The notes beneath the pieces were generated by a model that was given only the letters and a program-made list of their open reading frames with translations, ran no database searches and was not told the DNA's origin. A DNA stretch of 40,208 nt from Jimgerdemannia flammicorona (taxonomy: Eukaryota > Mucoromycota > Endogonomycetes > Endogonales > Endogonaceae). Shown one piece after another: positions 1,414-28,418 of this stretch (the first letter of the stretch is position 1; each line of letters starts with the position of its first letter). The position numbers were made by a program, and so were the translations under genes. The DNA is taken from contig RBNI01000148.1 of NCBI GenBank assembly GCA_003990745.1, forward strand, positions 1 through 40,208, read 5' to 3'.

Positions 1414-3450
1414 CTACAAGTCGGCATTCCGCTCCTCCTGCACTAAGTCTAATGCACGCTCAGCAGCTCGTTCCCTTTCCCCTGATTCCTGCGCCTCCAA
1501 CCCTTTCAGAAGTTCTACCATAGCTCCATCCTCCCTCTCCTCAAAGTCCTCCCTATACTCCAGACACGCCTCTCTCCAGAGCCACAAACCATGATGCTCA
1601 ACCCAACAGTAGGCCACCCTCTCACCCGCGGCTACCACCAGCTCCGCCTTCCTCACTCCATCGACCTCATAACCCTCCTCCTCCAGGAAGATCGCAAGAA
1701 TTTCCCCTTTCAGTGCCTCCACCACACTCTCGCCCTGCAGAACCCTTTCCCAGTGCTCCTCTGGCATCGCCCACAGGTCCACCTCTCCCAACGTATCCGC
1801 GGCGAGGTTATCCATCATCGTGCGTATCCACAGCAAGTTCCCCACCTCCTTCCCTCCAGGGGTTGCTGGCCGCCCTGCATCCAACATCGTGACGTCGGCA
1901 CCCACACTGGCGGCCTCATCCCACTCCTCCTCAAGGACATCCACCAGCTCATCCTCGCCGGCTGCTACCACCTGGCCCCCTTTTTCCACATCCGGAACCC
2001 CAAAGCGCACCCGCTGGGCCCCCTTCATCACCACATCCTCAGGTGCCCTCCTCTTCACGGCCGGGCCCCTCCTGATAAGAGGAGGGGGGGTGCCATCCAA
2101 ATCCTGTTCCCAGACTTCAAAAGTGCCGTCAGTATAGGGGTCCTTGCCCAATACCTTCCCAGCCTCTTCCTTGCCTGCCTCATCCTCCCCTCCACCATTA
2201 CCTGCCCAGACACTGGCACCGGCACCCCCAGACACCTCAGCTCCAACTTTCTTCTTCTTCTTCTCTGCCGTCATACTTGCCAGAAGTTCCCTCTGCCTCC
2301 TACGCCCCTGTACCCTCTCCCACTGCCTCTTGTCCATGCGGACACGCTTCCCCTCGACAACCTCCAGATGCGTCGACTCCTCGAAAAGCTTCCAGGCCTT
2401 CGCCCTCTTTTCCACTGCTCCACTCAGCTCCTCCAACGCCTCCAACAAATCCTCCTCCTCCTCCTCACTCCCCTTCACCCTCAACACCCTACAGACGACA
2501 GCACCCCACATCAACACCGAAGGCCAGTCCCTCTCCTTTCCGATGGCCTCCCTCCCTGCCAGCCTAATCCTGACATCCACATCACCTGTCCTGATTTCCG
2601 TCCCCTCCCACACCCTAAACCCAACATCCACCACATCGCCATACTCGGCCATCACCTCCTCAACCCTCCTCCTGGTCTCCATCTTCGTCACCATAGGCAC
2701 CCCCTTGACCATCAACTGTACTACCCTGGGGTCCCACCTAAGGCACCTCACTATAGGGACCGCCACTTCGCCAACCACTACTCCCGTCTTCATCGCCACA
2801 TCCAGTGGGCCTGCCTCCTCAAATCCCACCTCCACCCCCTCCAGCCCCTTCAGGAACTTCACCGAAGCAGCCCCAGCCACCTGCTGTGAGATAAGCCCCA
2901 AGACCATCCTCGCCATCACCGCCAAGCCTCGGAAGCACAAGGTGACCGCAAACTCCGAAATCGACTTCTTGAGTAATGGCGCTACCACCAGCCCCGTCAC
3001 ACCATCAGCCAGGTCCCCCTTCCAAATCGGTAGCCCCAGCCCCACTCCGCCATCAGCCGTCACATCTCTTTTTTTTTCCTGATTCCCTGTCATGCCTCCA
3101 TCAGCAGTCCCGCCCCCAGCCACAACCCCCCCAGACCCTATGCTTGCACCCCCAGGCTGGGGTTGTGGAGAGGCCTCCTTGCCACTTGAGGTAGCAGCTG
3201 CCTTCCCTAGCTCCAGCCAGCCATCCAGTCCAGTCGCCAGTTTTCCCATCCTGACCTTATCTGCGAAGGACATCCTCTCTCCCCCATGTTGCTTCGCCCC
3301 ACCTCTGCCCCCTCCTCCGGCTCCACGTCCCCTTACCGAGGCGCTCGGCATGCCAAGACCAGCACCTCGACCCCTCCCAACATGTTGCCAGTCAAAGGCA
3401 CTGGGGCCCCCCTGCCCAGTACGCTCACCAGAATGCTTGTTACTCGCCAT
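1414..3450 (-). CDS. LINE-1 ORF1, 678-aa RNA-binding (gag-like) protein, intact
   Basis: An uninterrupted 678-codon frame from an ATG in good context (AAGATGGCG). ORF1 proteins of LINEs bind the element RNA and form the particle needed for retrotransposition. The first 60 residues are rich in Arg-Gly (GRGRGAG, RGRGAGGGGRGG), an RGG-box type RNA-binding tract. Around residues 240-310 the segment VVQLMVKGVPMV, a predicted helix (RRRVEEVMAEYGDVV) and DVDVRIRL look like the beta-alpha-beta pattern of an RRM, but this is a visual judgement. Residues 310-420 and the C-terminus are acidic and helix-rich (SEEEEEDLLEALEEL). I see no CCHC zinc knuckle, which many Tad-like ORF1 proteins have. The homologous ORF1 at 34582-36463 is broken. 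Being intact, this copy is probably recent. Confidence 0.85.
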   Translation of the reverse strand: MASNKHSGERTGQGGPSAFDWQHVGRGRGAGLGMPSASVRGRGAGGGGRGGAKQHGGERMSFADKVRMGKLATGLDGWLELGKAAATSSGKEASPQPQPGGASIGSGGVVAGGGTADGGMTGNQEKKRDVTADGGVGLGLPIWKGDLADGVTGLVVAPLLKKSISEFAVTLCFRGLAVMARMVLGLISQQVAGAASVKFLKGLEGVEVGFEEAGPLDVAMKTGVVVGEVAVPIVRCLRWDPRVVQLMVKGVPMVTKMETRRRVEEVMAEYGDVVDVGFRVWEGTEIRTGDVDVRIRLAGREAIGKERDWPSVLMWGAVVCRVLRVKGSEEEEEDLLEALEELSGAVEKRAKAWKLFEESTHLEVVEGKRVRMDKRQWERVQGRRRQRELLASMTAEKKKKKVGAEVSGGAGASVWAGNGGGEDEAGKEEAGKVLGKDPYTDGTFEVWEQDLDGTPPPLIRRGPAVKRRAPEDVVMKGAQRVRFGVPDVEKGGQVVAAGEDELVDVLEEEWDEAASVGADVTMLDAGRPATPGGKEVGNLLWIRTMMDNLAADTLGEVDLWAMPEEHWERVLQGESVVEALKGEILAIFLEEEGYEVDGVRKAELVVAAGERVAYCWVEHHGLWLWREACLEYREDFEEREDGAMVELLKGLEAQESGERERAAERALDLVQEERNADL

Positions 3451-3531: not shown

Positions 3532-4096
3532 GTACTAGTTGGCTTTGATGACTCCATCTTGATGCCAGTTATTTTCTCCATTGAGTGTTCGGCAGGGTGT
3601 CTGGCAGTCCAATATCTCTATGTAAAGACCACTTTCTGATCAAGGGTCAGTGCAGCTGGGGTAGATCAGATTGCTAGGACAATTTCAGAGTGAACTCCTT
3701 TGAGGAAGGTTGAATCTGCTATTTGTTCCTTGAGGTGGTCATCATAGCCAGCCAAGACAATCTGGTGGCAAATTCGGGTATAGAATGAGTTGGGATCTTC
3801 ACTAGTCCCTGGCAGATAGTATTGAGTTGATCCTTGAGAGCTTGCTTGATCTCTTCAGTATAATATATTGCTCTGAGGAAGGCCTTCATGTTGGCAAGTT
3901 TGGCTACACTAGCATCAGCAATGGTGGCTATATTGAACTTATATCTAGCAGGTTCTCTGAGGCTGACTAGTAGAAGGGCCAATTGAGCATCCACACCAAG
4001 GGCTCATATGGCGGCGAATTGTTCAAAGTCTTCAATGAAGGTCAGGATTGACTCTTCAGTAGTATATTCATAAAATGTGGGAGGGCACATTTCCAT
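3532..4096 (-). pseudogene. DUT-Gypsy gag fragment (copy B)
   Basis: Start ATG at 4096-4094 corresponds to the gag starts at 7867 and 28316. The translation contains DAQLALLLVSLREPARYKF and EEIKQALKDQLNTICQGL, shared with the gag of the other copies; this is the retrotransposon capsid region. It carries an in-frame TGA just before DAQLALL, at the same place as in the full copy, and a 1-nt deletion after CQGL. It still has CGA (Arg) at a position where the full element has TGA, which documents a CGA-to-TGA change in that copy. LINE-1 cuts the frame at 3532. Confidence 0.82.
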
Positions 4097-4199
4097 CTTG
4101 TCTTGAATTCTTGCAGGGGTGACTCTTGTAGTCAGAGTAGTTATTGTGGGGGTTATTCATTTTTCAGCTTGAAAGTGAGGGATTCATCTTGAATCACCA

Positions 4200-4216
4200 G
4201 CCAATGAGTACCAAGT
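4200..4216 (-). promoter_or_regulatory. primer-binding site, copy B
   Basis: Immediately inside the LTR the minus strand reads acttggtactcattggctgg, one or two changes from the family sequence TGGTGCCCATTGGCTGG seen in the 4.0-kb element. The leading TGG is the complement of a tRNA CCA end. I could not assign the tRNA. Confidence 0.6.
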
Positions 4217-4696
4217 TGTCACGTAGTGGTCACTGAGTCCTTCAAATACACCAGATTCTCTTCAAGGTATATCTCTTAGACTAACTCAAGTTTGTTATAA
4301 GCAAGTTCTTATTGGAGTACCTTCCCAAGGTCTTATAGTCCTCAAACTTCTTATCTTTAAACTGTCTTGTTATCTCTTAGATTGCTTGCAAGGAAGTGTG
4401 TGTATTGTACTAAGAGGAACTGACTTTATTTTAGAGGAAATAAGAGGAGTATTTATATAAAATATAATTCAATAGTTGCTAAGATATAAAGCTAAATATA
4501 AATTCCAATAACTAAAACTACTAAGTTTCAGGGTCAGCACTGATGGTTGTACAGGTTCAGGATGCTGGTATTATTTAGTGTCACATCAAAATGCCAGTGC
4601 TAGAACAATTTCACATTACCTCAGAATACCAGTACTGGCATTATCTAGTGTTACATGAGAATACCAGTACTAGCATTATCCAGTGTAACAAGGAAC

Positions 4697-5502
4697 TTAG
4701 AGCAGAATGTTCAGGATCATGGGGGCTTCATCATCATCATCATCATCACTGAAGGAGATGAGATCTGCAAATTTGTCATTTTTGTGTGCTTCAATGTCAT
4801 GTGGGTGATGTCATCACTGATGATGTCATCACATTTGGTGGGGAAATCGGGAACAAGATCTGGAGCTCTCCAGTCTATGAGGTTCTCTTCCACAAAATAA
4901 GGAACAAATGTGGGGTCTTGGGGAGGTCTAACTTAGATGCTTGGGCCTTGGAATACTGAGATCAATCCTTGTAGGAATTGGTCTGAGTTGTCCTGAAGGA
5001 TGGGATGCCAGAAGTCTTCTACTTCTTTACTGTTGAGAGTGATAGTGGACTGGGCTTCTGTAGCCACTCTGGCTTCTAGTGTATTGATATAGTGGAATAA
5101 CAGGTCTCTGAAATCTGAGACTCTAATATACTCTAAGTTGGAAATTGACCATGGTGCATGTCTGAAGATCTGATGGATCTTCTTAGCTATTCTCGTTTTG
5201 CATATATCCATGGGAGTGGCATCTTGTAGCTCTTGAGTACTGGCCTGTGGGAACTCCTGGCAGAGGAGGTTTCTTATTTTATACTCCTGCCATATTTGGA
5301 GGTATTCGGTAGCAATGGTGATCCTTGTTTCCATTTCATGATGGTAGAGAATAAAGTGGTAAGGGTCTACAGTACCCAGGTTGACACTGGGAGTCCTTCT
5401 AGTACAGGTCCCCATAGCTCTTCTGATGTCTTGGAACATCCTTTCCTCAACTGAGATGCCTTAGTGATTCCTTAACCTTGAGGTTTGGCAGATAGCAGAC
5501 AT
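4697..5502 (-). pseudogene. LTR-encoded gene, copy B (broken)
   Basis: Homologue of the LTR protein at 6488-7309. The ancestral start ATG lies at 5502. A TAA in the first 15 codons, a TAA after FQGPSI (about 4933) and a late frameshift near the acidic tail inactivate it. The stretch 5439-4933 is still open for 168 codons (MFQDIRRAMGTCTRRTPSV onward) and aligns without gaps to the intact copy. The final acidic tract is longer here because of extra GAT codons. Confidence 0.8.
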
Positions 5503-5581
5503 TTCATTTGTAGTAAGTCTTTGAGCTATTTTGGGATTGGTGGTTCTTGTTGGTTGCTACTACTGCAGTTCCTTGATCCTT

Positions 5582-5626
5582 CTTTTATATTCTTCAGGAT
5601 GCTTGTACTGTGATCACAATGACTCA
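5582..5626 (-). promoter_or_regulatory. LTR gene promoter in copy B: TGAGTCA and TATAAAAG
   Basis: On the minus strand TGAGTCA (5626-5620) is followed about 30 bp later by TATAAAAG (5589-5582), the same arrangement as in the other four LTRs. TGAGTCA is the consensus for Gcn4/AP-1 bZIP activators. Function is inferred. Confidence 0.55.
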
Positions 5627-5744
5627 CAGTTGGTCATCATTGCTCATCTCATATGCTGTATGATCTTCTTGTGCTCTGATCTGGTGGCTTATAAGGAAAG
5701 GCTGTCTCCTGTGCTGATGTCATCATTCTGAGGTCACTGTTACA

Positions 5745-6245: not shown

Positions 6246-6363
6246 TGTAATAGTAACCCCAGAATGATGACATCAGCACAGGAGACAGTCTTTCCTTATA
6301 AGCCACCAGATCAGAGCATAAGAAGATCATATGGCATATGAGATGAGCAATGATGACCAACTG

Positions 6364-6408
6364 TGAGTCATTGTGACCACAGTACAAACATCCTGAAGAA
6401 TATAAAAG
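6364..6408 (+). promoter_or_regulatory. LTR gene promoter: TGAGTCA site and TATAAAAG box
   Basis: TGAGTCA at 6364-6370 (Gcn4/AP-1-type bZIP consensus) lies 30 bp upstream of TATAAAAG at 6401-6408. The ancestral start codon of the LTR gene is 80 bp further on, a sensible 5' UTR length. The pair is retained in all five LTR copies (13562/13599, 15224/15261, 17659/17696 and, on the minus strand, 5626/5589), although the surroundings have mutated. Promoter activity is inferred. Confidence 0.6.
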
Positions 6409-6550
6409 AAGAATTAAGGAACTGCAGTAGCAGCAACCAACAAGAACCACCAATCTCAAAATAGCTCAAAGACTTACCACAAATGAAATGCCTGCCACCC
6501 ACTAAACCTCAAGGTCAAGGAATCACCAAGGCATCTCAGTAGAAGAAAGG

Positions 6551-7309
6551 ATGTTCCAAGACATCAGAAGAGCCATGGGGACCCACACCAGAAGGACTCC
6601 TAGTGTCAACCTGGGTACTGCAGATCTCTATCACTTTATTCTCTATCACTGTGAAATGGAAACAAGGATTACCATTGCTACCGAATGCCTCCAAATGTGG
6701 CAGGAGTACAAAATAGGAAACCTCCTCTGCTGGGAGTTCCCACAGGCCAGCACTCAAGAGCTACAAGATGCCACTCCCATGGATATACACGAAATGACGA
6801 CAGCTAAGAAGATACATCAGATCTTCAGACATGTACTATTGTCAATCTCCAACTTGGAGTATGTTAGAGTCTCAGACTCCAGAGACCTGTCATCCTACTA
6901 TATCAATGCACTAGAAGCCAGAGTGGCTACAGAAGCCCAGTCCACTATCACTCTCAACAGTGAAGAAGTAGAAGACTTCTGGCATCCTATCCTCCAGGAC
7001 AACTCAGACCAATTCCTGCAAGAATTGATCTCAGTATTCCAAGGCCCAAGCATCCAGGTTAGACCTCTCCAAGACCCCACATTTGTTCCTTATTTTGTGA
7101 AAGAGAACCTCATAGATTGGAGAGCCCCCAATTTCTCTGCCACTGAATGTGATGATGTCATTGGCGATGACATCATCCTGTATGACTTTGATATATCCGA
7201 AGCACGCGAAGTATGCGAAACGTATGACCTGTATAATGAATTCATAGATCTCATCTCCTTCAGTGATGATGATGATGAAGCCCCTATGATTCTGAACTTT
7301 CTGCTCTAA
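6551..7309 (+). CDS. LTR-encoded protein, open for 252 codons, unknown function
   Basis: Open frame MFQDIRRAMG...LNFLL inside U3. In the 3' LTR and the solo LTR at 15105 the same frame extends 21 codons upstream to an ATG (MPA.HQTSRSR...). Here that ATG (6488) is followed by a TAA where the others have CAA, so the ancestral protein was 273 aa (6488-7309). I recognise no domain. Residues 1-150 look helical and mixed in charge; the last 60 are strongly acidic with interspersed hydrophobics and end SFSDDDDEAPMILNFLL, a tail kept in four copies. That composition recalls acidic activation domains, but this is only a suggestion. There is no signal peptide or membrane segment, so an Env is unlikely. 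It has its own TATA box upstream and would share the LTR polyadenylation site. Confidence 0.72.
   Translation: MFQDIRRAMGTHTRRTPSVNLGTADLYHFILYHCEMETRITIATECLQMWQEYKIGNLLCWEFPQASTQELQDATPMDIHEMTTAKKIHQIFRHVLLSISNLEYVRVSDSRDLSSYYINALEARVATEAQSTITLNSEEVEDFWHPILQDNSDQFLQELISVFQGPSIQVRPLQDPTFVPYFVKENLIDWRAPNFSATECDDVIGDDIILYDFDISEAREVCETYDLYNEFIDLISFSDDDDEAPMILNFLL
7151..7177. repeat. inverted repeat inside the LTR gene, ATF/CRE-like
   Basis: Arms GATGATGTCAT (7151-7161) and ATGACATCATC (7167-7177) are perfect inverted copies with a 5-bp spacer. In the solo LTR the matching place reads GATGACGTCATC (16024-16035), a perfect palindrome containing the CRE/ATF consensus TGACGTCA. A C-to-T change at its CpG would give the form seen here. 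Confidence 0.5.
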
Positions 7310-7316
7310 GTTCTTT

Positions 7317-7417
7317 GTTATACTGGATAATACCAGCACTGGTATTCTGAGGTGATGCAAAATTGTTCCAGCACCAGCATTTTGATATGACACTAGATAA
7401 TACCAGCATCCTGAACC
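7317..7417 (+). repeat. 35-bp minisatellite in LTR, about 3 degenerate units
   Basis: Tandem units resembling ACTGGATAATACCAGCACTG plus 15 bp, starting 8 bp after the LTR gene stop. Unit number differs among LTRs (four at 14515-14650, three at 16178-16282) and accounts for most of their length differences. Confidence 0.75.
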
Positions 7418-7512
7418 TATACAACTATCAGTACCGACCCTGGAACTTAGTAGTTTTAGTTATTAGAATTGATATTTAGCTTTATATCTTAGCAACATTG
7501 AATTATATTTTG

Positions 7513-7545
7513 TATAAATACCCCTCTTATTTCCTCTGAAATAAA
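7513..7545 (+). promoter_or_regulatory. second LTR promoter and polyadenylation signal: TATAAATA and AATAAA
   Basis: TATAAATA at 7513-7520 is followed by AATAAA at 7540-7545, and the same pair occurs at 14746/14773 and 16379/16406. This is the usual LTR arrangement: transcription would start just downstream and, in the 3' LTR, cleavage would follow the AATAAA. It is placed to drive the genomic RNA and to end transcripts of the LTR gene. Confidence 0.65.
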
Positions 7546-7749
7546 TTCAGTTCTGGTTTCACTTACACATACTTCCTTGCAAGCAATCTAAGAGATAACA
7601 AGATAGTTAAAGATAAGAAGTTTGAGAACTATAAGACCTTGAGAACTCCAATAAGAACTTGCTTACAACAAACTTGAGTTAGTCTAAGAGATACATCTTG
7701 AAGAGAATCTGGTATATTTGAAGGACTCAGCGACCACTATGTGACAACT

Positions 7750-7766
7750 TGATGCCCATTGGCTAG
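7750..7766 (+). promoter_or_regulatory. primer-binding site, copy A
   Basis: TGATGCCCATTGGCTAG, three bases inside the 5' LTR, is the family sequence TGGTGCCCATTGGCTGG with two G-to-A changes. The same leader occurs at 4216 and 28415 on the minus strand. The primer tRNA was not identified. Confidence 0.65.
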
Positions 7767-7866
7767 TGATTTAAGACGAATCCCTCACTTTCAAGCTGAA
7801 AAATGAACAATCCCCATAACAACTACCCTGACTACAAGAGTCACCCCTGCAAGAATTCAAGACAAG

Positions 7867-8925
7867 ATGAAAATGCATCTCACCACATTCTATAGATATA
7901 CTACTGAAGAGTCAATCCTGACCTTCATTGAAGACTTTGAACAATTCGCCGCTGTATGAGCCCTTAGTGTGGATGCACAATTGGCCCTTCTACCAGTCAG
8001 CCTTAGAGGACCTGCCAGAGACAAGTTCAATATAGCTACTATTGCTGATTCTGGTGCAGCCAAACTTGCCAATATGAAAACCTTCCTCAGAACAACATAT
8101 TATACCAAAGAGATCAAGCAAGCTCTTAAGGATCAACTCAATACTATCTGCCAGGGACTTAGTGAAGATCCCAACTCATTCTATACCTGAATTTGCCACC
8201 AGATTGTCTTGGCTGGCTATGATGACCACCTCAAGGAACAAATAGCAGATTCAACCTTCCTCAAAGGAGTTTACTCTGAAATTGCCCTAGCAATCTGATC
8301 TACCCCAGCTGCACTGACCCTTGATCAGAAAGTGGTCTTTGCATAGAGATATTGGACTGCCAGACACTCTGCCGAACACTCAATGGAGAAAATAACTAGC
8401 ATCAAGATGGAGCCATCAAAGCCAACTAGTATCTTACCTGCTATAGTCATAAACAGACAACCAACCTCACCTATCCCCAAGACAGCCAAAGCTGACCCAG
8501 TGGAGGAACTCACCAAGCAGTTTGCCAAGATGACTGCACACCTTGGTGATGTTGTTAGAGAAGTCTAAAGCACCAACAGGAGACCAGTGCAGAGAATTGC
8601 AGCCGCTACAGAAGAATGCAATATCACATACTTCAGATATAGAGAAGAAGGCCACTATGCAAAGAGTTGCATGACCGAAACAAGATGCAAAGCCCAACCA
8701 AGCAATGCTAGCAGAACCAGAGAACAAACTAATGCAGTAGTCATCGAGGAGATTGGTGACACTGATGATGAAGAATACTATGAGGAGCTTGAATTCTACC
8801 CTGCTACTGAAGGTACCAGAACCCAGTCCAAGCTCTATGATAAGAAGAGCAACAGCAAGCCAGTTGGAAGACCAAAGAAGACCCCAGCTGTCACTATTCA
8901 AAGCAAGACCCAACCCGAGGGATTG
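7867..8925 (+). pseudogene. DUT-Gypsy gag (copy A), capsid and degenerate zinc knuckle
   Basis: Gag packages the element RNA. The start ATG (7867) matches the gag start of the 4.0-kb copy. The capsid-like region contains EESILTFIEDFEQFAAV, DAQLALLPVSLRGPARDKF and EIKQALKDQLNTICQGL. In-frame stops include three TGA where relatives have Arg codons, a TAG for Gln (AQRY) and a TAA near 8566. The nucleocapsid zinc knuckle, CYSCREEGHYSYEC in the 4.0-kb copy, reads YFRYREEGHYAKSC here: the first two cysteines are Tyr and Tyr through G-to-A changes, so the knuckle is dead. A 1-nt deletion near 8920 shifts the frame into the protease part; the relative shows gag and protease were originally continuous. 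Confidence 0.85.
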
Positions 8926-9239
8926 ATCAAGACATGGAGTTAGATGAAGCTGCCTACCAAATTATTGAAAGCACTACTCCAGTCTCAGGAGAAAGTGAAA
9001 GCAAGAAGGAACAGAAGCTGCACAAGACCAAGATCCACCAGTATGACATCTACAAAAACCTCAAGGAACAGAAGGTCAATGCCACTTTTGGATAGCTAGC
9101 TGAAGTCCCTGCCTTCAGACAGCAGTTGAGAGTAGGACTTGCAACTACCACCAAGAATCAAGAGTACAAGATTGTAGAAGCTCACAATGTACAGGAAGAA
9201 TCCAAGAACTCAGGTGAAGAATCCAAAGACCAGCACAAG

Positions 9240-9593
9240 ACATCAGCCTATACCCCATATCAGATTGAAAATTGTATCTTTGATGCCATCATTGATACTG
9301 GTGCTGGAGGATGCCTTATGAGCAAGAAGGCAATTGACTGCCTAGGCTGGGACATTGAAGAGTCTACCAAGATGGTCTATGTCACAGCAGACGGTACACG
9401 AGCTACCCCCCTTGGCAAAATCCAAGAAGTCTCCATCAAGATAGGAGGAGCTACCATCCCAGTAGACATGATTGTTACAAGCACCACCAACTATGACATT
9501 CTCATTGGCAACCAATGGCTTCACAAGGCCAAGGCCATCATTGACCTCAATGCCCAGAAGATGCAGATCAACTATAGAGGAAGAAAGGTATGA
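9240..9593 (+). other. aspartic protease domain (copy A)
   Basis: The retropepsin active site is seen as IFDAIIDTGAGGCLMS (DTG followed by AGG instead of the common A-S/T). Further on are the ADGTRATPLGKI flap-side segment and YDILIGNQWLHKAKAIIDL, matching the ILG-x-x-W(L) motif of Gypsy proteases. It would cleave the Gag-Pol polyprotein. The same domain is intact in the 4.0-kb element at about 26990-26640. The active-site region here has no stop; the frame ends at 9591-9593. Confidence 0.85.
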
Positions 9594-9761
9594 GTCTCTA
9601 TCAATGTCCACAAAGGAGTTCTACCAGACATAGAGGAAGGAGATAAAGAGGATACAGAGGTCTTCATGCACTCGGTGAACAAGAACAAGAGCAAGACACC
9701 CAAGCTCACAGATGAGCAGTGGTATAACAAGATCATTGATGGATATGCCTCTCAAGGAAGA

Positions 9762-9818
9762 TGCCCCCATGGTACTAGGATGTACTGCTCCAAACACCTG
9801 AATGACTGCTGGTCCTGT
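9762..9818 (+). other. conserved Cys/His motif between protease and dUTPase
   Basis: CPHxxxxYCxxHxxxCxxC, preceded by GYA.QG, is kept in all three copies that cover it (here, about 26445-26389 minus, about 34075-34018 minus). The spacing of the Cys and His residues suggests a metal-binding module. I know of no named domain with this pattern. A Lys/Glu-rich linker follows it and leads into the dUTPase. Confidence 0.6.
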
Positions 9819-9969
9819 ATCAGTGAAGTCAGAAAAATCTGCCAACAGAAACATGAGCAAGAAGCCGCTGAAGCAAAAAGGAAAGCCGAAGAAGATGACC
9901 AGCCCCCAGAGCTTCAAGCTGACAGTGATGATGAGGAGAAACAAGAATCAGACATCACCCTCAAGGTCA

Positions 9970-10379
9970 AGAAGTTTCACCCTGAAGTCAAGATCCCAGA
10001 ATACAAGACTGAAGGAGCCATAGGAATGGACCTTACCAGTATTCAAGATACTACCCTTAAACCACAGACCACCACCCTACTTGGCACTGGAATTGGAGTC
10101 AAGTTGCCAGAAAACTACACCAGAATTATCAAGACCAGGAGCAGTCTGGCCAAAAGCAAAATCTCAGTTGAAGGAGGAGTAATTGACCCTGATTACACTG
10201 GCGAGATCTTCCTCATAGTCAGAAATCACAATCACACCACCCTCTTCGAAGTCAAGAAGCATAACAGGATCGGCCAGATGCTGATCCATGAAATCAAGAA
10301 GCCCAAGATCATAGAAGCCATCAAACTCATCAAGATCGAGAGAGGAGAACAAGGCTTTGGATCTACTGGAAGAGGAGCC
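9970..10379 (+). other. dUTPase domain in pol (copy A), all five motifs
   Basis: Trimeric dUTPases hydrolyse dUTP to dUMP and pyrophosphate and so keep uracil out of DNA. Motifs in order: 1, GAIGMDLTS; 2, TRSSLAKSKI; 3, GGVIDPDYTGEI, including the Asp that activates water; 4, NRIGQM (usually DRIAQ); 5, RGEQGFGSTGRG, the nucleotide-closing arm. The stretch has no stop or frameshift in this copy, so the domain itself looks functional. Its place between protease and RT differs from non-primate lentiviruses (between RNase H and integrase) and from betaretroviruses (fused upstream of protease). Recurs at 25820-26210 and 33460-33870 on the minus strand. Confidence 0.88.
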
Positions 10380-10629
10380 TATGTCACTACCAAGATTACT
10401 GAACTTGAGCACAAGAAAGACAAGGACCAGAACAAGCACACATATACCATTGGAGAAAACTTTCCCCTGGAGGAACAACTTCTCAAGATCCTGCACCAGA
10501 ACAAAGGAGTACTTGCTACAGACTTTAGGGATATCCATAATCAAGAACCCAAATACTACTATGAAGTTGACACTGGTGATACCAAGCCCATCTATCAGAA
10601 AGCCAGACCCATACCACCTATCTATAGAG

Positions 10630-11330
10630 AATGGCTGTGAGCAGAACTCAAGGAAATGGAAGAAGCCAGAATTATCAAGCAAGCTATCAGCCCCTGGGCT
10701 TTACCTATTGTCCTTGCCCCAAAGAAAGGAAGCAAGCCTGGAGAGTTTGCACTAAGACTCTGTATTGACTACAGGAAGCTCAATGCCATCACCAAGAAGG
10801 ATAGGCAGCCCTTACCAAATATTCAAGAAATCCTTACCACCCTTGGAAGCAAAGCCAAATACTACACCACCTTAGATCTGTTCTCAGGCTTTCATCAGAT
10901 TGGTCTCACTCAAGATGCCAGTGAGAAATCAGCCTTCATCACACCTGATGCCACCTATATCTACCTGCAAATACCATTTGGAATGTGCAATGCCCCAGCA
11001 AGTTTCCAGCGAATGATGAACAGCATCTTCAGCAATGAGATTGGAAAATAGCTCTTTGTCTATGTTGATGATGTGATCATCTTCAGCAACACAGCACAGG
11101 AACATGTCAATTACATACAGCTAGCCCTCAAGAAACTCAAGGAACATGGCCTCTACATTAAGCCCAAGAAATGTAAGTTTGCAGCTCAGGAAATCGCCTA
11201 TCTAGGACACCTCATCAACCAGACTGGAATCCACACAGATCCCATGAAGATCGAGGCTGTTGCAGCCTACCCAAGACCCAGAACAACCATAGAAGTCCAT
11301 GCCTTCCTTGGACTGGCCAGCTACTATAGA
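10630..11330 (+). other. Ty3/Gypsy reverse transcriptase domain (copy A)
   Basis: Copies element RNA to DNA. Visible segments: EARIIKQAISPWALPIVLAPKK, LRLCIDYRKLNAITKKDRQPLPNI, TTLDLFSGFHQIGL (first catalytic Asp), IPFGMCNAPASFQRMMN, and LFVYVDDVIIFS with the catalytic YVDD. The FLGLASYYRRFI region follows into the connection. A TAG at 11049-11051 just before LFVYVDD is TGG in the minus-strand copy (32790 region). All catalytic residues are retained. Confidence 0.88.
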
Positions 11331-11479
11331 AGATTTATCAAAGGATACTCCAATATTGCAGCACCTATCTATGAGCTACTGAAGAAGGAGACCAAATTCA
11401 AATGGACCAAGGAGCACCAAGAAATCTTCAATGAACTCAAGACCAGATTGACCCAAGCACCTATCCTCAGAAGACCAGA

Positions 11480-11890
11480 CTGGAACCTAGAATTCATCCT
11501 GCAGATAGATGCGAGTGCTATAGGACTTGGAGCAGTCCTAGCTCAGAAGAAAGATGGATATGAATATATCATCTCCTATGTAAGCTGAGGTACCCATGGA
11601 GCAGAACAGAACTATGAGTCATACAAGCTTGAATGCTTAGTGGTAGTTTGGGCAGTAGACAAGTTCCACTACTACCTAGCTGGGAAACACTTCACTATTC
11701 AAACAGATCACTCTGCTCTCACCTGGCTATTCCACACTCTGAACCCCAAAGGAATATATGCCAGATGGATCTACAGGCTGTAAGAGTATGACTGTACTGT
11801 CAAGCACTGCTCAGGAAAGACCAACACCAATGCCGATGCACTCTCAAGAATACCCCAAAACACCCACATCAAGACCATTCAACATGAATA
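11480..11890 (+). other. RNase H domain (copy A)
   Basis: FILQIDASAIGLGAVLAQ supplies the first Asp of Gypsy RNase H, followed by EQNYESYKLECLVVVWAV with its Glu, HFTIQTDHSALTWL with the third acidic residue, and TNTNADALSRI at the end. It removes RNA from the RNA-DNA hybrid. The TGA after YVS (11586) and a TAG after YRL (11780) break it; both are transition-type changes. Confidence 0.82.
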
Positions 11891-12049
11891 AGGAGCTATA
11901 CTATGGATTAATCAGCTACCTTGGGCAGCAGAAGATGCCCAACCACCTCAAACCCTGAACAATTACCATCATCAACCAGACTTGGAAACAGTTTGAACTA
12001 GACAATACTATACTCAGAAAAGGAGGAAAACTAGTAATATCCGAACATA

Positions 12050-13080
12050 AGAAGTATCAAGTAAAGAAGGAAGTACATGAGCAAGGACACTTAGGAGGAA
12101 TCAATATATATAACAAGACAAGAAGAACTATATAGTGGCCCAAGATGGAAGAAGACCTGTGCCAATTTGTCAAAGGGTGTGACAAGTGCCAAAAACAGAA
12201 ACAAGATCAGCAAGACCAGGCACCCAGGTCATCAAGAATTGAGCCTATCCTCTTCCACCACATCACAATAGATATCATTGGACCACTACCAGTAACACTA
12301 TCAGGAAATAACTATATTATAGTTATTGTAGACCTCTTCACCAAATAGATAGAGGCAAGAGCATTACAAGAAGCCAATACCCTCTTTATAGCCAACTTCT
12401 TGCACCAAGAAATCATCTGCCACTACAAGATACCAAAGCAAATCACAACAGACTGCAGCCTGGAATTTGTCAATGGATTCCACAAGATAATGTATCAGAA
12501 ATACAAGATCCAGCACATCAAGACCACCGCATACCACCCTCAAGGAAATGGACAGATAGAGAGAACCAACAAGACCCTCAAGAACATCCTAACGAAGATC
12601 TCAGAGACATATGAGAATTGGGATAACTATCTCCCAACCGCCCTCCCTATCCTATGAGACATACAGTCACAGAGCACACACTTTACTCCAAGAGAGCTGC
12701 TCTTCGGAGAAGAAGATTCTGATGGAACCTCAGCCACAAATCTAGACCTAACTTGGAGACAGGTTGATGCAGAAATCCGGAGACTATACCAAATCAGGAA
12801 GAAGGCTGAAGATTACATCACCAAGTCACAAGCACTGACAAGAAAGAATGCAGAAAAGAATCACAAGGCCCTAGAACCCATCTGGATCAGAGAAAAGATT
12901 CTACTGTATCAAAATATGGTAGAAGCCTCATGGTCACGAAAACTGTAGCCCAAATGAGAATGACCTTTCTACATACAAGATATCAAAAGAACTACCTTCT
13001 GGCTTAGAAAAATCTCAGGGACCATACTGCCTACTATGGTACATAGGAACAGACTCAAGAAGTACTATGAACCTATATAA
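12050..13080 (+). other. integrase: zinc finger, DDE core, GPY/F-like C-terminus (copy A)
   Basis: In the first frame. The HHCC finger shows HEQGHLGG and CDKCQKQK. The core has HHITIDIIGPLPV (first Asp), QITTDCSLEF (second Asp) and TAYHPQGNGQIERTN (Glu). The C-terminal part PFYIQDIKRTTFWL... VHRNRLKKYY resembles the GPY/F module of Gypsy integrases. Stops: TAG near 12136, 12346 and 12946, and TGA at 12655. No chromodomain is seen after it. Confidence 0.83.
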
Positions 13081-13433
13081 GAGAAGCAAAACATGATGAC
13101 TGCCCACAAGGTTCTAGTCTGCGAATCATAACATATGTCCTGTGACCAGCAGGCTATCTGTCTGGACCATTCTCTAAGAGATACAGTACTGGCAACTACT
13201 CATCTGTGAGACTTTTGAAGTCAGAGGAGTTTGAACCATCAACTGATTGGTCAAGATCAGAATCAGGCCCTTGCTCTATATAAAGGGAGCGACCCTTCAC
13301 CATCATGCCAAAATATAAAGGGAAGATGCCAGCCCATAAACACCACTTTTCGACCCCTTGCCAGAGGTTATGGGATCAGCAAATTTTTCAGGACTGGACC
13401 AATGAATAAGGATGCTCAGGAAGATTCTTATTC
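13081..13433 (+). other. 3' internal spacer of copy A with TATA-like box and 34-codon ORF
   Basis: No pol similarity. TATATAAAG at 13277-13285 is followed by ATG at 13305, opening a 34-codon frame (MPKYKGKMPAHKHHF... ending at 13409). The position, between integrase and 3' LTR, is where env or accessory genes sit in other elements. The ORF is short and could be chance; the TATA could also serve the LTR gene downstream. The other copies do not cover this segment, so conservation is untested. Confidence 0.35.
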
Positions 13434-13443
13434 AGGAGGAAGA
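13434..13443 (+). promoter_or_regulatory. polypurine tract
   Basis: AGGAGGAAGA directly before the 3' LTR, the usual primer for plus-strand DNA synthesis. The preceding bases ATTC are also shared: the 4.0-kb element has the same ATTCAGGAGGAAGA at its 3' LTR. Confidence 0.75.
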
Positions 13444-13685
13444 TATAATGGTAACCCCAGAATAATAACATCAGTACAGGAGACAGCCTTTCCTTACAAG
13501 CCACCAGATCAGAGCATAAGAAGATCATATGACATATAAGATGAGTAATGATGACCAACTGTGAGTCATTGTGACCACAGTATAAGCATCCTGAAGAATA
13601 TAAAAGAAGGATCAAGGAACTGCAGTAGCAGCAACCAATAAGAACCACCAATTCCAAAATAGCTCAAAGACTTACTATAAATGAA

Positions 13686-14507
13686 ATGCCTGCCACCTGC
13701 CAAACCTCAAGGTCAAGGAATCACCAAGGCATCTCAGTAGAAGAAAGGATGTTCTAAGACATCAGAAGAGCCATGGGGACCCACACAAGAAGGACTCCTA
13801 GTGTCAACCTGGGTACTGCAGATCCCTATCACTTTATTCTCTACCACTGTGAAATGGAAACAAGGATCACCATTGCTACCAAATGCCTCCAAATGTGGCA
13901 GGAGTACGAAATAGGAAACCTCCTCTGCCGGGAGTTTCCACAGGCCAGCACTTAAGAGCTACAAGATGCCACTCCCATAGATATACATGAAACAAGGACA
14001 GCTAAGAAGATCTATCAGATCTTCAGGCATGCACCATGGACAATCCTCAACTTGGAGTATGTTAGAGTCTCAGACTTCAGAGACCTGTCATCCCACCATA
14101 TCAATATACTAGAAGCCAGGGTAGCTACAGAAGCCCAGTCCACTATCACCCTCAATAGTGAAGAATTAGAAGACTTCTGGCATCCTATCCTTCAGGACAA
14201 CCCAGACCAATTCCTGTAAGGATTGATCTCAGTATTCCAAGGCCCAAGCATCTAGGTTAGACCTCCCTAAGACCCCACATTTGTTCCTTATTTTGTGGAA
14301 GAGAACCTCATAGATTAGAGAGCCCCTGATTTCCCCACCACCGAACATGATAATGTCATTGGTGATGATGTCATTCCACATGACTTCGACATACCTGAAG
14401 CATGCGAAGTATGCGAAACGCATGACCTGCATGACAAATTCGCAGATCTCATCTCCTTCAGTGATGATGATGATGAAGCCCCCATGATCCTAAACTTTCT
14501 GCTCTAA
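13686..14507 (+). pseudogene. LTR gene in the 3' LTR (273 codons, stops)
   Basis: Same 273-codon length and frame as the 5' LTR copy, with no net indel. Here the upstream start is preserved: MPATCQTSRSRNHQGISVEE precedes RMF. A TAA directly after MF (CAA in others), a TAA after QAST (13952), a TAA (14217) and two TAG (14252, 14316) break the frame. Every one of these corresponds to a Gln or Trp codon in another copy. The acidic tail and LNFLL end are retained. Confidence 0.78.
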
Positions 14508-14514
14508 GTTCTTT

Positions 14515-14650
14515 GTTACACTGGATAATGCCAGCACCGATATTCTCATATAATACTGGATAATACCAGCACTGGTATTCTGAGGTGATATGAAATTGTT
14601 CCAGCACTGGCATTTTGATGTGATACTAGATAATACCAGCATCCTGAACC
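14515..14650 (+). repeat. 35-bp minisatellite, about 4 units (3' LTR)
   Basis: Four degenerate units starting at 14515, 14550, 14585 and 14620, one more than in the 5' LTR. Confidence 0.75.
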
Positions 14651-14983
14651 TGTACAACCATCAGTACTGACCCTAGAACTTAGTAGTTTTAGTTATTGGA
14701 ATTTATATTTAGCTTTATATCTTAGCAACATTGAATTATATTTTGTATAAATACCCCTCTTATTTCCTCTGAAATAAAGTTAGTTCTGGTTTCACTTACA
14801 CACACTTCCTTACAAGCAATCTAAGAGATAACAAGATAGTTAAAGATAAGAAGTTTGAGGACTATAAGACCTTGGGAAGGCACTCTAATAAGAACTTGCT
14901 TATAACAAACTTGAGTTAGTCTAAGAGATATACCTTGAAGAGAATCTGGCATATTTGAAGGACTCAGTGACTACTATGTGACA

Positions 14984-15104: not shown

Positions 15105-15347
15105 TGTAACGGTGACCCCAGAATGATGACATCAGTACAGGAGACAGCCTTTCCTTACAAAGCCACCAGATCGGAGCATGAGAAGATCATATAGCATATG
15201 AGATGAGCAATGATGACCAACTGTGAGTCATTGTGACCACAGTACAAGCATCCTGAAGAATATAAAAGAAGGATCAAGGAACTATAGTAGCAGTAACCAA
15301 TAAGAACTACCAATCCCAAAATAGCTCAAAGACTTACTACAAATGAA

Positions 15348-16170
15348 ATGCCTGCTGCCCACCAAACCTCAAGGTCAAGGAACCACCAAGGTATCTCAGT
15401 CGAAGAAAGGATGTTCCAAGACATCAGAAGAGCCATGAGGACCTACTCAAGGAGGACTCCTAGTGTCTACCTGGGTACTGCAGACTCTTATTACTTCATT
15501 CTCTACCACCGTGAAATGGAAACAAGGATCACTATTGCTACCATGCCTCCAAATATGGCAGGAGTATGAAATAGGAAACCTCCTCTGCCAGGAGTTCCCA
15601 CAGGCCAGCACCCAAGAGCTACAAGATGCTACTCCCATAGATATACATGAAACGAGGACAGCTAAGAAGATCCATCAGATCTTCAGGCATGCACCATGGT
15701 CGATCCCCAACTTGGAGTATGTTAGAGTCTCAGACTTCAGAGACCTGTCATCCCGCCATATCAATGTGCTAGAAGCCAGGGTGGCTACAGAAGCCCAGTC
15801 CACTATCACCCTCAATAGCAAAGAAGTAGAAGACTTCTGGCATCCCATTTTTCAGGACAACCCAGACCAATTCCTGCAAAGATTGATCTCAGTATTCCAA
15901 GGCCCAAGCATCCAGGTTAGATCTCCCCAAGACCCCACATTTGTTCCTTATTTTGTGGAAGAGAACCTCATAGACTGGAGAGTCCCAGACCTTGTTCCCG
16001 ATTTTCCTGCCACAGCTGAACGTGATGACGTCATCAGCGATGATGTCATCCCGTGCAACATCAACATATGCGAAATGCGCGACCTGCATGACAAATTCGC
16101 AGATCTCATCTCCTTCAGTGATGATAATGATGATGATGAAGCCCCCATGGTCCTGAACTTTCTGCTCTAA
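15348..16170 (+). pseudogene. LTR gene in solo LTR 1 (one frameshift)
   Basis: Retains the original start at 15348 (MPAAHQTSRSRNHQGISVEE) and an open frame to about 15569. A frameshift around 15540 (ATIATMPP for ATECLQM) moves to the frame that stays open to the stop at 16168-16170. Apart from that indel there are no stops in this copy, making it the best guide to the ancestral protein. The acidic tail reads SFSDDNDDDEAPMVLNFLL. Confidence 0.8.
16024..16050. promoter_or_regulatory. CRE/ATF palindrome and a second near-copy
   Basis: GATGACGTCATC (16024-16035) is a perfect 12-bp palindrome with the TGACGTCA consensus of CREB/ATF-type bZIP proteins. GATGATGTCATC (16039-16050) is the same with the CpG changed to TpG. 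They lie inside the LTR gene, so coding constraint is an alternative reason for conservation. Confidence 0.45.
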
Positions 16171-16177
16171 GTTCTTT

Positions 16178-16282
16178 GTTACACTGGATAATGCCAGCAC
16201 CGGTATTCTTATGTAACACTGGATAATGCCAGCACTGGTATTCTCATGTAACACTGGATAATACCAGCACCAGTATTCTGAG
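16178..16282 (+). repeat. 35-bp minisatellite, 3 units (solo LTR 1)
   Basis: Units at 16178, 16213 and 16248, each starting G-T-T/A-A-C-A-C-T-G-G and differing at few positions. This is the most regular version of the array. Confidence 0.85.
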
Positions 16283-16617
16283 ATGACACGAAATTGTTCC
16301 AGCCCTGGAACTTAGTAGTTTTAGTTATTGGAATATATATTTAGCCTTATATCTTAGCAACTATTGAATTATATTTTGTATAAATACCCCTCTTATTTCC
16401 TCTGAAATAAAGTCAGTCAACTCAGTACAATACACACACTTCCTTGCAAGCAATCCAAGAGATAACAAGATAGTTAAAGATAAGAAGTTTGAGGACTATA
16501 AGACCTTGGAAAGGCACTCCAATAAGAACTTGCTTATAACAAACTTGAGTTAGTCTAAGAGATACACCTTGAAGAGAATCTGGCATATTTGAAGGACTCA
16601 GTGACCACTACATGACA

Positions 16618-17526: not shown

Positions 17527-19168
17527 TATAATGATGACCTCAGAATAATGACATCAGCACAAGAGACAGCAATTCCTTGCAAGCCACTTGATCAGAGCAT
17601 AAGAAGATTATACAGCATGACTCACCCAGGCTATAAGATGAGCAATGATGACCAACTGTGAGTCATTGTGACTACAGTACAGACATCTTGAGGAATATAA
17701 AAGAAGGATCATAGAACCACAGTAGCAGTAACTCAATAAGACCCACCAATCCCAAAATAGCTCAAAGACTTATCACAAATGAAATACCTGCTGCTCACCA
17801 AACCTCAAGGTCAAGGAACTACCAAGGTACCTCCGTTGAAGAAAGGATGTTCCAAGACATCAGAAGAGCCATGAAGACCCACATAAGAAGGACTCCTAGC
17901 CTCAACCTAGGTACCAGAGATCCTTATCACTTTATTCTCTACTACTGTAAAATGGAAACAAGGATCACCATTACTCCTGAATGCCTCTAAATATGGCAGA
18001 AGTATGAAATAGGAAACCTTCTCTGCCAGGAGTTCCCACAGACCAGCCCTCAAGAGTTACAAGATGCCACTCCCATGGATATATGTGAAATAAGGACAAC
18101 TAAGAAGATTCATCAGATCTTCAGATATACACCATGGTTGATCCCCAACTTGGAGTATGTTAGAGTCTCAGACTTTAAAGATCTGTCAGCCCACCATATC
18201 AATGCACTAGAAGCCAGGGTGGCTACAGCAGTCTGCTATTACTCTCAATAGTGATGAAGTAGAAGACTTCTGGTATCCTATCCTCCAAAACAACCCAGAT
18301 CAATTCCTGCAAGGATTGATCTCAGTATTCCAAGGCTCAAGCATCCAGGTTAGATCTCCCCAAGACCTCACATTTGTCTCTTATTTTGTAGAAGAGAACC
18401 TCATAGACTGGAGAGCCCTGGATCTCCTCACTCTCTCTGCTACTGCTGAATGTGATGATATTATCAGTGATGACATCATCCTACATGACATATATAAATC
18501 ACATGATATATGCAAACCATGTGATATATGCGAAATGAGCAATCTATGTGATGAGACTGAAACATTTGTAGATCTCATCTCCTTTAGTGACAATAAGGAT
18601 GAAGCCCTCATGATTCTGAACATTCTGCTCTAAAGTCTCATAGTTACACTGAATTATGCCAGCATTCTTTTCCTGTGTAACAGCTGTTCCTCAACTGGTA
18701 TTCTGATCTTGTGTGACTCAGAATTATTCCAGCACCCTTTTCCTATATCACCAAAATTATTCCAGCACCCTTTTTCTATATTACCAAAATTATACCAGTA
18801 TCTTGAACCTGTACAACCATCTGTGCTGACACTGGAACTTGGCAATTTTCTGTATCCCAGCATTTTATTTAGTTATTGAAATTTATATTTAGCTTTATAT
18901 CTTAGCAACTATTGAATTATATTTTGTATAAATACCCCTCTTATTTCCTTCAAAATAAAGTCAGTCTACTCAGTGCAATACATACAATTCCTTGCAAGCA
19001 ATCTAAAAGAGATAACAAGACAGTTTAAAGATAAGAAGTTTGAAAACTATAAGACCTTAGGAAGGCACTTCAATAAGAATTTGCTTATAACAAACTTGAG
19101 TTAGTCTAAGAGATATACTTTGAAGAGAATCTGACATATTTGAAGGACTCAGCAACCATTACATGACA
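17527..19168 (+). repeat. DUT-Gypsy solo LTR 2 (1642 bp)
   Basis: Begins TATAATGATGACC (TG to TA) and ends ACATGACA, flanked by ATAG. It is longer and more diverged than the other LTRs, with a differently expanded repeat region at about 18655-18830. TGAGTCA at 17659 and TATAAAAG at 17696 remain. It splits Copia RT between YYMTSKSIK and IDIKRAFLN. Confidence 0.88.
17784..18633 (+). pseudogene. LTR gene in solo LTR 2 (start lost, several breaks)
   Basis: The start codon position reads ATA. Several stops and indels follow (a TAG shortly after DIHRS-like coding, a deletion near 18230). The last third, from 18316, is open for 105 codons and includes IQVRSPQDLTFVSYFVEENLIDWRA and the tail SFSDNKDEALMILNILL. 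The acidic part has an extra repeat of ICKPCDICE-like residues. Confidence 0.7.
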
Positions 19169-20440
19169 ATAGATATAAAGAGAGCATTTCTAAATAGTGA
19201 TGTAGATACCAAACTATATGTCTGTCAACTGCAAGAATACAAAAAAGGCAAGCTTGTATATAAATTATATAAAGGATTATATATATAGTATTAAGCAAGT
19301 AGTATAACTATAAAATAAAAGAATAGATAAACATCTCTTCAATAATGGATTTATGTATTACAAAGTAGATAACTACATATATATCCAATACTATAATGAT
19401 GGCATAGTATTTATTGATATTTGGATTGATGATATTATTATCATTATCAGTAAGAACAGACTTAATGGAGTCAAAAAAGCCCTATACTGAGAATTTAAGA
19501 TGATAGATATGAGTGACATATCCTTTGTTTTGGGGATATCCATTATACATAACAGAAATACATATACAATATATCTCTTGCAAGTAATATATACTCAAAC
19601 AATCCTTGAATATTTCAATATAAATTAATGCAAGTCTATTAGCACTCTTATAAATACTTTTGTGAAGTTAAGAAAACCAGACACTACTCTTGAGGATGAT
19701 AACAATATGTAAGCTAAGAATAGTATTAAAGATATATCTTATTAGCAAGCAGTTAGTTCTCTCATATATCTCATACTAGGAATAAGGTCTAATATATTAT
19801 ATATTATAAATAAGATGGTACAATATTCCTCCTGCTTTGACAATATATATTAGAGTACTGTCAAGAGAATATTTAGGTATCTTAAGAGTATAGCATACTA
19901 TATACTTATATTGAGTAATAGTGATAGCAGGAGAAATAATAAGAAAAATACTATTTGACTATTTAGTATATATAATACTGATTGGATAGATGATCTTAAT
20001 GATTATTAATCTATAATAGGCCATCTTTTCTATATTAGTAATAAAGGATCTATTATATCCTAACAAATATATAAGCAGAGTTTGGTGGCAATATCATCAA
20101 TGCAGGCAGAGTACCAGATATTGTTAATGATAATAAAAGAAATAATATAGCTCTACAAATTGTTAAAAGAGCTTGGTTTCACTCAGAAGAACTCTACATT
20201 AATCAAGTAAGACAATTAATCAACAATAGCATTTGCCAAAAACTCAGTATATTATAGTAGAATAAAATATATCAATATATAGTCTATTTTATTTATAAAT
20301 ATATAGAGTGTAAAAGTATATGCTTGAAATATATCCCTATAGAGTATATGATTACTAATTCACTTATGAAAGTCCTTTCAAAGCTGAAGTTTGAGAAATA
20401 TATTAAAGGAATGGATCTTCTTCTTATAAGTAATATACCA
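19169..20440 (+). pseudogene. Copia RT C-terminal half and RNase H remnant
   Basis: Continues directly from 17526: QIDIKRAFLNSDVDTKLYV, then GKLVYKLYKGLY. At about 19400 IDIWIDDIII corresponds to the YVDDI active site, followed by GVKKALY and SFVLGISIIHNRNTYTIYL. RNase H follows: AVSSLIYLILGIRSNI, KRIFRYLKSIAYYI, LVAISSMQAEYQIL and TIAFAKNSVYYSRIKYINI, each a clear echo of the Copia consensus. Stops and frameshifts are frequent. Confidence 0.82.
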
Positions 20441-20939
20441 GTTTAGCAGTTAATCATAAGATATTTTTCAGGCTCTCAAAAGCCTCTCTTTCTATATTTG
20501 TATTATTTATATCTATATTTTATATTCTCTCTTTTATGAGTGGATTTTTGTAGATATTTCACATATTTTAGATATATTTTAGAATACTTTTTAACTTATA
20601 AAAATTTCTTAAGTATAGGATTATATATATATATGTATATATAATTTTTAAGTTATTTATATTTCTAGTTTTTATATATATTAGGCATTGCTTTTTACTC
20701 TAGTTTGCAGTTTGTATTCTCTTTTTGGATTATATATCTCATTGAGTAGAAGTATTAGGATAGTAACTCAATATATCAATATATGACTTATGCTATTTTA
20801 TCAGATTTATATCATTCATTAGTAATGTATGAAATATGTGACTTTAAGAACTTCAATAAATACCTCTCTTTTACAATATATATTATATTAAATATATTGA
20901 AGATTGTTTCTCTTATATTATAGAGATCAAAAAGAGGAG
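20441..20939. other. AT-rich spacer, nothing recognised
   Basis: Between the Copia RNase H and the next Gypsy relic. It contains TA-repeat tracts (about 20620-20645). It may hold the 3' LTR of the Copia element, but I could not delimit one. Confidence 0.5.
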
Positions 20940-22870: not shown

Positions 22871-23069
22871 AGCATCTCTCTCTTCTAAAATGATCTAGTT
22901 CAGACTATAAAAAATGACTATATCAAGAATCTGGCCCTACAGAAAATTGCCAATAATCTACTATAAGAGTATCTAATCTCAACAGATCTACAAGAATGCT
23001 GCAAACAAAAATAGTTATATCTTTCTGGATAACCAGTAACTCTAGATCCCAAACACTTCTATCTAAATC

Positions 23070-24290: not shown

Positions 24291-24300
24291 TCTCTGACCA

Positions 24301-25326: not shown

Positions 25327-25339
25327 TCTTCCTCCTGAA
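25327..25339 (-). promoter_or_regulatory. polypurine tract of the 4.0-kb element
   Basis: Minus strand TTCAGGAGGAAGA next to the 3' LTR, identical to the tract before 13444. Confidence 0.75.
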
Positions 25340-26210: not shown

Positions 26211-26388
26211 TGGTAGAACTGCATCAGGATGGATTTTCCAAATCTTGACCTTGATCTCTTCTTCATTGTCACTGTCTTCTAGGAGGGCTGGTGGTTCGCC
26301 ATCTTCCTCCTCTTCCTTTTTTCTTCTGGCCTGTTCTTCGAGAACCTTCCGTTTTCTTTCATAGTGGATCTTCTTGATTCTACCAGTG

Positions 26389-28415: not shown

Positions 28416-28418
28416 AGT

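Follow-up and report, generated by a model that had tools for sequence, protein, structure and literature searches.

Gypsy elements in the window

The window, the 40,208-nucleotide stretch of Jimgerdemannia flammicorona contig RBNI01000148.1 analysed here, contains five LTRs of one Gypsy family, recovered by blastn of the window with an LTR of element A (LTR A). A frame of about 820 nt, the putative U3 gene, sits entirely within the U3 of the LTRs of this family. The elements that concern us are the following.

4217..5744, minus strand: LTR of a truncated copy with a gag remnant at 3533-4216 (blastn)
6246..7746, plus strand: 5' LTR of element A, TG...CA (blastn, 90% to 13446-14983; junctions from the sequence)
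7747..13443, plus strand: internal region of element A with decayed gag, PR, dUTPase, RT, RNase H and IN pieces (Pfam, sequence)
13444..14983, plus strand: 3' LTR of element A (blastn, sequence)
15105..16617, plus strand: solo LTR with CTAT on each side (blastn; flanks read from the sequence)
17527..19168, plus strand: more diverged solo LTR, 78% to LTR A, with ATAG on each side (blastn; flanks from the sequence)
24861-28884, minus strand: sister dUTPase-bearing Gypsy element, body 66% identical (blastn)

The body of element A gave Pfam matches to protease, dUTPase, RT and RNase H, with Integrase_H2C2 just under the cut-off at 2.2e-5 and a weak rve_3 match downstream. The order PR-RT-RNase H-integrase and the flanking LTRs identify it as a Gypsy element, and with a dUTPase between PR and RT its type is Ty3/Gypsy, PR-dUTPase-RT-RH-IN. 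End features of Gypsy elements were also recognised by eye, namely TG...CA, 4-bp flanking repeats and a PPT-like AGGAGGAAGA that closes the internal region of element A. The 5' LTR of the element runs TG...CA and the 3' LTR has TA instead of CA, and both solo LTRs are bordered by 4-bp repeats (CTAT and ATAG).

The LTRs of the sister element are about 470 nt long, 95.9% alike and devoid of the U3 gene; thus, either one lineage acquired the gene-bearing U3 or the other has lost it. By eye, the sister LTR has a TATAAATAA and AATAAA arrangement like that of element A, and the two elements share the same primer-site neighbourhood. The sister pol is truncated: only a short distance separates the RT start from the 3' LTR. 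A second pol-region copy (31296-34488, minus strand) matches the body of element A at 90% identity, and blastn with LTR A found no LTR beside it. The interval 19200-24850 is very AT-rich (GC 0.24-0.26 at 20-24 kb) and almost CpG-free, and by eye it suggests an ancient retroelement that has accumulated many mutations. Two further regions probably represent copies of a single LINE-type element: a reverse transcriptase region of non-LTR-like type (RVT_1) at 36564-40140, and a 678-aa minus-strand frame at 1414-3450, which has inverted repeats in common with 34501-35129. Neither Rfam nor tRNA scanning yielded a match in the window.

The U3 frame and its surroundings

The five window copies of the frame are in different states of decay.

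4697..5502, minus strand: U3 gene in the LTR of the truncated copy, two stops and a frameshift
6488..7309, plus strand: U3 gene, 5' LTR copy of element A; codon 6 is TAA, and the frame is uninterrupted between 6551 and its stop codon (7307-7309)
13686..14507, plus strand: U3 gene, 3' LTR copy of element A, with six internal stops
15348..16170, plus strand: U3 gene, copy of the first solo LTR, its frame shifted once between positions 15533 and 15538
17784..18633, plus strand: U3 gene, copy of the diverged solo LTR; ATA replaces the start ATG, one stop is present and the frame shifts near 18228

The initial annotation described a 273-codon frame recurring in all five LTRs. The frame does occur in all five at these positions, but none of the five copies is open from end to end over 273 codons. 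Both LTRs of element A carry it over 822 nt with no net indel, as had been noted; in the 5' LTR the ATG lies at 6488 and the frame is open from Met22, giving 252 aa. Since all five copies are broken, the window alone is insufficient to judge whether there is a gene.

Around the frame, the LTR of element A carries several candidate signals and one variable stretch.

6364..6370, plus strand: TGAGTCA motif upstream of the U3 gene, present in 66 of 74 LTRs
6401..6408, plus strand: TATAAAAG, TATA box and candidate promoter of the U3 gene, 87 nt before the ATG, in 71 of 76 LTRs
7310..7460, plus strand: fast-diverging post-ORF stretch, with 35-bp tandem repeats there in related LTRs
7513..7521, plus strand: TATAAATAC, second TATA and candidate promoter of the genomic RNA (sequence)
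7540..7545, plus strand: AATAAA, candidate poly(A) signal, probably common to the U3 gene and the genomic RNA (sequence)

Three of these, TATAAAAG at 6401, TGAGTCA at 6364 (which we take to be a Gcn4/AP-1 type motif) and AATAAA at 7540, had been picked out beforehand and are confirmed in the sequence. Compared with stretches of equal length, TATAAAAG and TGAGTCA rank only at the 92nd and 83rd percentile of conservation, which does not set them above their surroundings. The layout suggests two promoters and a single poly(A) signal, in which the first TATA would serve the gene and the second the genomic RNA. A scan of the LTR for sigma-70 promoters and terminators, using a model unsuited to this organism, gave results below chance.

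Tandem arrays occur in 51 of 72 post-ORF segments, 48 of them with a period of 35 or 70, and run to 1.9-4.6 units. Transversions per site amount to 0.049 in these repeats and 0.043 in the coding tail, compared with 0.003-0.015 elsewhere. The 35-bp units differ among copies in both number and sequence and are rich in CCAGC: the 72 segments average 4.1 occurrences of CCAGC/T each, compared with 0.19 after mononucleotide shuffling.

Genome-wide evidence for coding

The genome searched comprises 134.8 Mb in 7754 contigs. Searches for copies covered the best 45 of 3175 first-look candidates at the DNA level and the best 142 of 4424 at the protein level. A search with the diverged relative P0004 covered the best 152 of 3743 first-look candidates and found identities of up to 80%, so the family probably comprises several subfamilies. 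As all these figures come from the best matches only, the copy numbers of the family are lower bounds. Among 71 tblastn stretches, 56 were long enough in a single frame, and 55 of these were distinct.

In these 55 copies, each picked by one long unbroken frame match and hence biased toward retained frames, in-frame stops averaged about 1.5 per copy and were absent from 15. The other two forward frames held about 9.4 and 21.8 stops per copy, the latter figure being based on 51 copies, and averages of 10.6, 9.0 and 23.7 were counted in the three reverse frames (55 copies). Indel lengths followed the frame as well, with the proviso that a single event may be split over several alignment rows: where indels were common to at least five LTR copies, 11 of 12 inside the frame were multiples of three, compared with 2 of 21 outside it. 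The triplet contrast was weak for indels in two to four copies (14/39 in the frame, 10/37 outside), and singletons were multiples of three in 51 of 98 cases in the frame and 16 of 69 outside.

Shifting the frame served as a control. Omega for 17 copies was 0.71 in frame, and rose to 1.03 and 1.36 when the frame was displaced by one and two bases, respectively. A dependence of divergence on codon position, proposed earlier as a check of the frame, was also observed: the shares of differences by codon position were 0.33, 0.24 and 0.44 in the 17 copies, compared with 0.31-0.37 per phase in the non-coding parts of the LTR, where no phase stands out strongly.

A sceptical reading would take the frame for a chance open stretch, or for a by-product of biased C-to-T decay, with no gene involved. 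It fits the state of the window, where five of five copies are broken, and the nature of the differences, which are mainly transitions, C/T above all at CpG. However, stops are scarce in one frame only, omega is frame-specific, indels common to at least five copies come in triplets, low omega is confined to the active-lineage part of the divergence (see below), and metagenome relatives exist at 56-82% identity, two of them spanning the whole query. The frame control and the comparison of LTRs within and between elements refute this reading, which we reject as scarcely credible. Judged from sequence, the U3 of the family almost certainly contains a true gene for a protein, about 270 codons long, and the genome-wide pattern of stops, omega and indels bears out the original proposal of an accessory protein gene in U3, encoded twice per full element.

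Selection in active lineages and decay of inserted copies

Decay of the LTRs, as seen in the 55 U3 frames, is mostly by transitions. The number of C/T-differing pairs relative to C-sharing pairs is 0.83 at CpG, 0.17 at CpA and CpC, and 0.04 at CpT (55 U3 frames). These CpG-centred differences resemble the decay of methylated CpG and are unlike the CpA pattern of repeat-induced point mutation, a process of ascomycetes.

Because the decay is transition-heavy and CpG-biased, omega was calculated with a spectrum-corrected expectation: the nonsynonymous changes observed were set against an expectation in which each base change is moved to a random site that has the identical base and 3' neighbour. 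Frameshifted copies were excluded from every omega count. Over all 1485 pairs of the 55 copies omega was 0.65, ranging from 0.52 to 0.69 by distance class and lowest in the closest class.

An element inserts with two identical LTRs, and any differences between the pair must have arisen later. This allows the divergence between elements to be divided, and the omega of the active lineage was obtained from the between-element divergence minus the post-insertion part, with copies on both sides of the comparison selected alike. From 24 planned 5'/3' LTR pairs, eight were not carried on (six whose partner had no frame match, one frameshifted and one partial); two of the remaining 16 failed the single-frame filter, and two of the 14 left were dropped as they did not group on the tree (omegas 0.69 and 0.96).

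For the 12 confirmed pairs, omega within elements was 1.14 (bootstrap 1.06-1.23; 670 nonsynonymous among 941 changes), which indicates that resident copies decay without detectable coding constraint. Between elements of the same set it was 0.74, giving an active-lineage omega of 0.25 (0.16-0.32), with 0.20 (0.11-0.27) for the core of the frame and 0.50 (0.19-0.82) for the tail. Retaining all 14 pairs gave 1.08 (0.97-1.19) within elements and 0.23 (0.12-0.30) in the active lineage. The comparison of dN/dS across copies that had been recommended for this frame thus comes out well below 1 in the active lineage, and with the frame control it identifies a coding frame in an LTR under purifying selection.

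The U3 gene is, as far as these substitution patterns tell, selected in active elements and not in resident or solo LTRs. Selection while transposing and none after insertion points to a benefit to the element, not to the host. The initial annotation had gone further in supposing that solo LTRs retain the gene, whose product could act after the body of the element is lost; the within-element omega does not support this.

A gag fragment of the U3-gene family had an omega of 0.91 (0.82-1.01) between elements (19 copies); its divergence of 8.7% is about what post-insertion decay alone would give, so gag is no strong yardstick or positive control here. Divergence between elements was 13.6% for the U3 gene (17 loci) compared with the 8.7% of the gag fragment (19 loci). 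The excess lies largely in the tail, the rest of the frame being at about 10% and the element body at 8.6%; possibly, varied U3 modules are carried on more uniform element bodies.

The U3 protein and its relatives

Seven metagenome proteins are related to the U3 protein. Six came from the first search, at 56-82% identity and with two covering the whole query, and a second, profile-based search added one short relative, P0007. The metagenome relatives retain the frame, and one has both its ATG and its end in common with the U3 frame. No homologue outside the Gypsy family was found among the best matches listed by these word-based searches, and none of three pattern matches in viral contigs was confirmed as a relative. 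By sequence comparison, the U3 protein is an orphan with relatives detected only in metagenomes.

Domain searches offered no firm assignment. Pfam gave no match above the cut-off for two window proteins and five relatives: CMAS on the minus-strand copy was far below the cut-off, ATG5_HBR in two of the five relatives was below it, and the 252-aa window protein had no match at all. Three relatives were without a match in NCBIfam, and the same number gave a single weak match in PHROGs (E 0.1). Matches to PDB by sequence were Vta1 (E 0.8) and shikimate kinase (E 0.21), which we take as chance. An AlphaFold2 model from nine sequences was uninformative (mean pLDDT 36) and hence supplies no DNA-binding fold to back a regulatory role.

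Full-length P0002, one of the metagenome relatives, has a pI of 4.5, with a basic first 45 residues (+8) and an acidic last 70 (-17). Maximum hydropathy lies between 0.12 and 0.97 in six of the seven relatives and reaches 1.78 in P0004, a possible membrane segment. Lysine is scarce, at a mean of 4.8 of 272 residues (68 copies), compared with 8-12% in the pol pieces of element A and its sister; in the gag fragment of the sister element it is likewise only 3.7%. The U3 proteins are rich in arginine, and all 68 copies retain a pair of neighbouring lysines, whose codons are probably slow to decay. Lysine deserts are described as averting ubiquitin-dependent degradation (PMC10169902, PMC10665810).

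An amino-acid make-up unlike that of pol and poor in lysine could betray a captured host gene, a passenger spread by the element and useful to the host, although the sister gag fragment is also low in lysine. Against such an origin, the inserted copies are neutral, so that no benefit to the host is detectable, and a host homologue was not found among the best-scoring matches. We consider a captured host gene highly unlikely.

Proposed function

Our preferred reading, put forward tentatively, is that U3 contains a coding gene whose protein regulates the LTR or chromatin of its own family in the service of the element. The U3 gene would be transcribed from its own promoter TATAAAAG (6401) and its transcript would end at the LTR AATAAA (7540). 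The genomic RNA would start near the second TATA (7513), end in R of the 3' LTR and carry the U3 gene as a third frame behind pol. The product would be a small, acidic regulator, most of whose relatives lack an evident membrane span, and it would promote expression through the family's own LTR or chromatin; regulator and target would then sit together in U3. Of this scheme, we infer the use of promoter and poly(A) signal, the nuclear action and the target of the protein. An acidic protein with a basic N-terminus, low hydropathy in six of seven relatives and no domain match argues for a regulator over an enzyme or Env, as do the fast-diverging tandem repeats that adjoin the gene. The P0004 stretch with a hydropathy of 1.78 counts against it.

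Yeast Ty1 p22 is a truncated Gag that limits its own family, and the U3 protein could likewise restrain its family through copy-number control or superinfection exclusion. Being encoded in the LTR, solo LTRs included, its dose could rise with copy number, and the protein is small and separate from Gag. However, the gag homology that a p22-type protein would have was not found: hhalign against the 163-aa gag fragment of the sister element gave a probability of 0.1%. A brake could be selected in the active lineage, but this needs a benefit to the element. Self-limitation is, in our estimation, rather unlikely.

The U3 protein might instead be a particle or trafficking factor, encoded by a third frame that follows pol and occupies the position of env or other ORF3 genes. 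Captured ORF3 genes of bdelloid LTR elements are described at this same position, the 3' end of the genomic RNA (PMC5408684), and the hydrophobic stretch of P0004 would suit such a role. On the other hand, the gene lies entirely in U3 with its own TATA box and not between pol and the LTR, the other six relatives have no comparable stretch, and no Pfam match rose above the cut-off. This role also appears improbable to us. We therefore rank the regulator first, still as a tentative choice, with self-limitation and a particle or trafficking role following, both of them doubtful.

Comparison with known systems

Genes in LTRs are known from retroviruses, and genes lying wholly inside LTRs are, to our knowledge, very rare. 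The sag gene of MMTV is a protein gene in the LTR, and is hence present twice per provirus; its product is a membrane superantigen that acts on vertebrate T cells. The initial annotation drew this parallel, which holds for the location of a protein gene in the LTR and goes no further, as nothing connects the proteins: no Pfam match above the cut-off related two window proteins and five relatives to the Sag family. In contrast to sag, the U3 protein has no detected relative outside its family and belongs to a Gypsy element with a TATA box within U3. Foamy virus Tas/Bel1 and lentiviral nef are 3'-terminal accessory genes that overlap U3, and Tas activates its own LTR. These retroviral genes overlap the LTR only in part, whereas here the entire frame and its candidate promoter lie in U3.

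Exact-phrase searches of the open-licence literature found no report of a gene in a fungal LTR. PosPlaTy3-5 of Postia is described as having a dUTPase between protease and reverse transcriptase (PMC2864245), and fungal elements including Tmt1 of Tuber are cited as carrying one (PMC6431247, PMC5408684). Tmt1 and PosPlaTy3-5 thus share the dUTPase of element A, and the passages on them mention no LTR gene (PMC2864245, PMC6431247, PMC5408684). In the crapaud element of Podospora anserina, the LTRs of one family are described as differing mostly in U3 and being alike in the rest; in this U3 variability it resembles the U3-gene family, but the description gives it two ORFs, GAG and pol, with no LTR ORF (PMC10787394).

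The protein could also be a counterpart of VANC, with U3 encoding a sequence-specific regulator or anti-silencer and the 35-bp repeats as its fast-evolving target, an analogy that we regard as improbable. VANDAL elements are DNA transposons of plants, and thus of another kind than the Gypsy U3-gene family. VANC of Arabidopsis VANDAL is presented as an anti-silencing accessory protein whose target tandem repeats vary between related elements (PMC5735166, PMC10398659). An accessory gene beside fast-diverging, element-specific repeats is the feature in common, matched here by layout only. If the analogy were correct, each LTR would be a self-contained cassette of gene plus target, and U3 variants would diversify so as to escape silencing in a genome whose repetitive DNA is losing CpG.

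Implications

The U3 of an abundant Gypsy family carries an LTR-borne gene, for which no relative was found outside the family. The LTR pair of each element provides a built-in control, in which selection on active elements can be set against the decay of residents, and this comparison within and between elements could be applied wherever a gene is suspected in an LTR. Should the protein prove to act on the LTR that encodes it, the family would offer a compact model of a transposon that holds regulator and target in one repeat.
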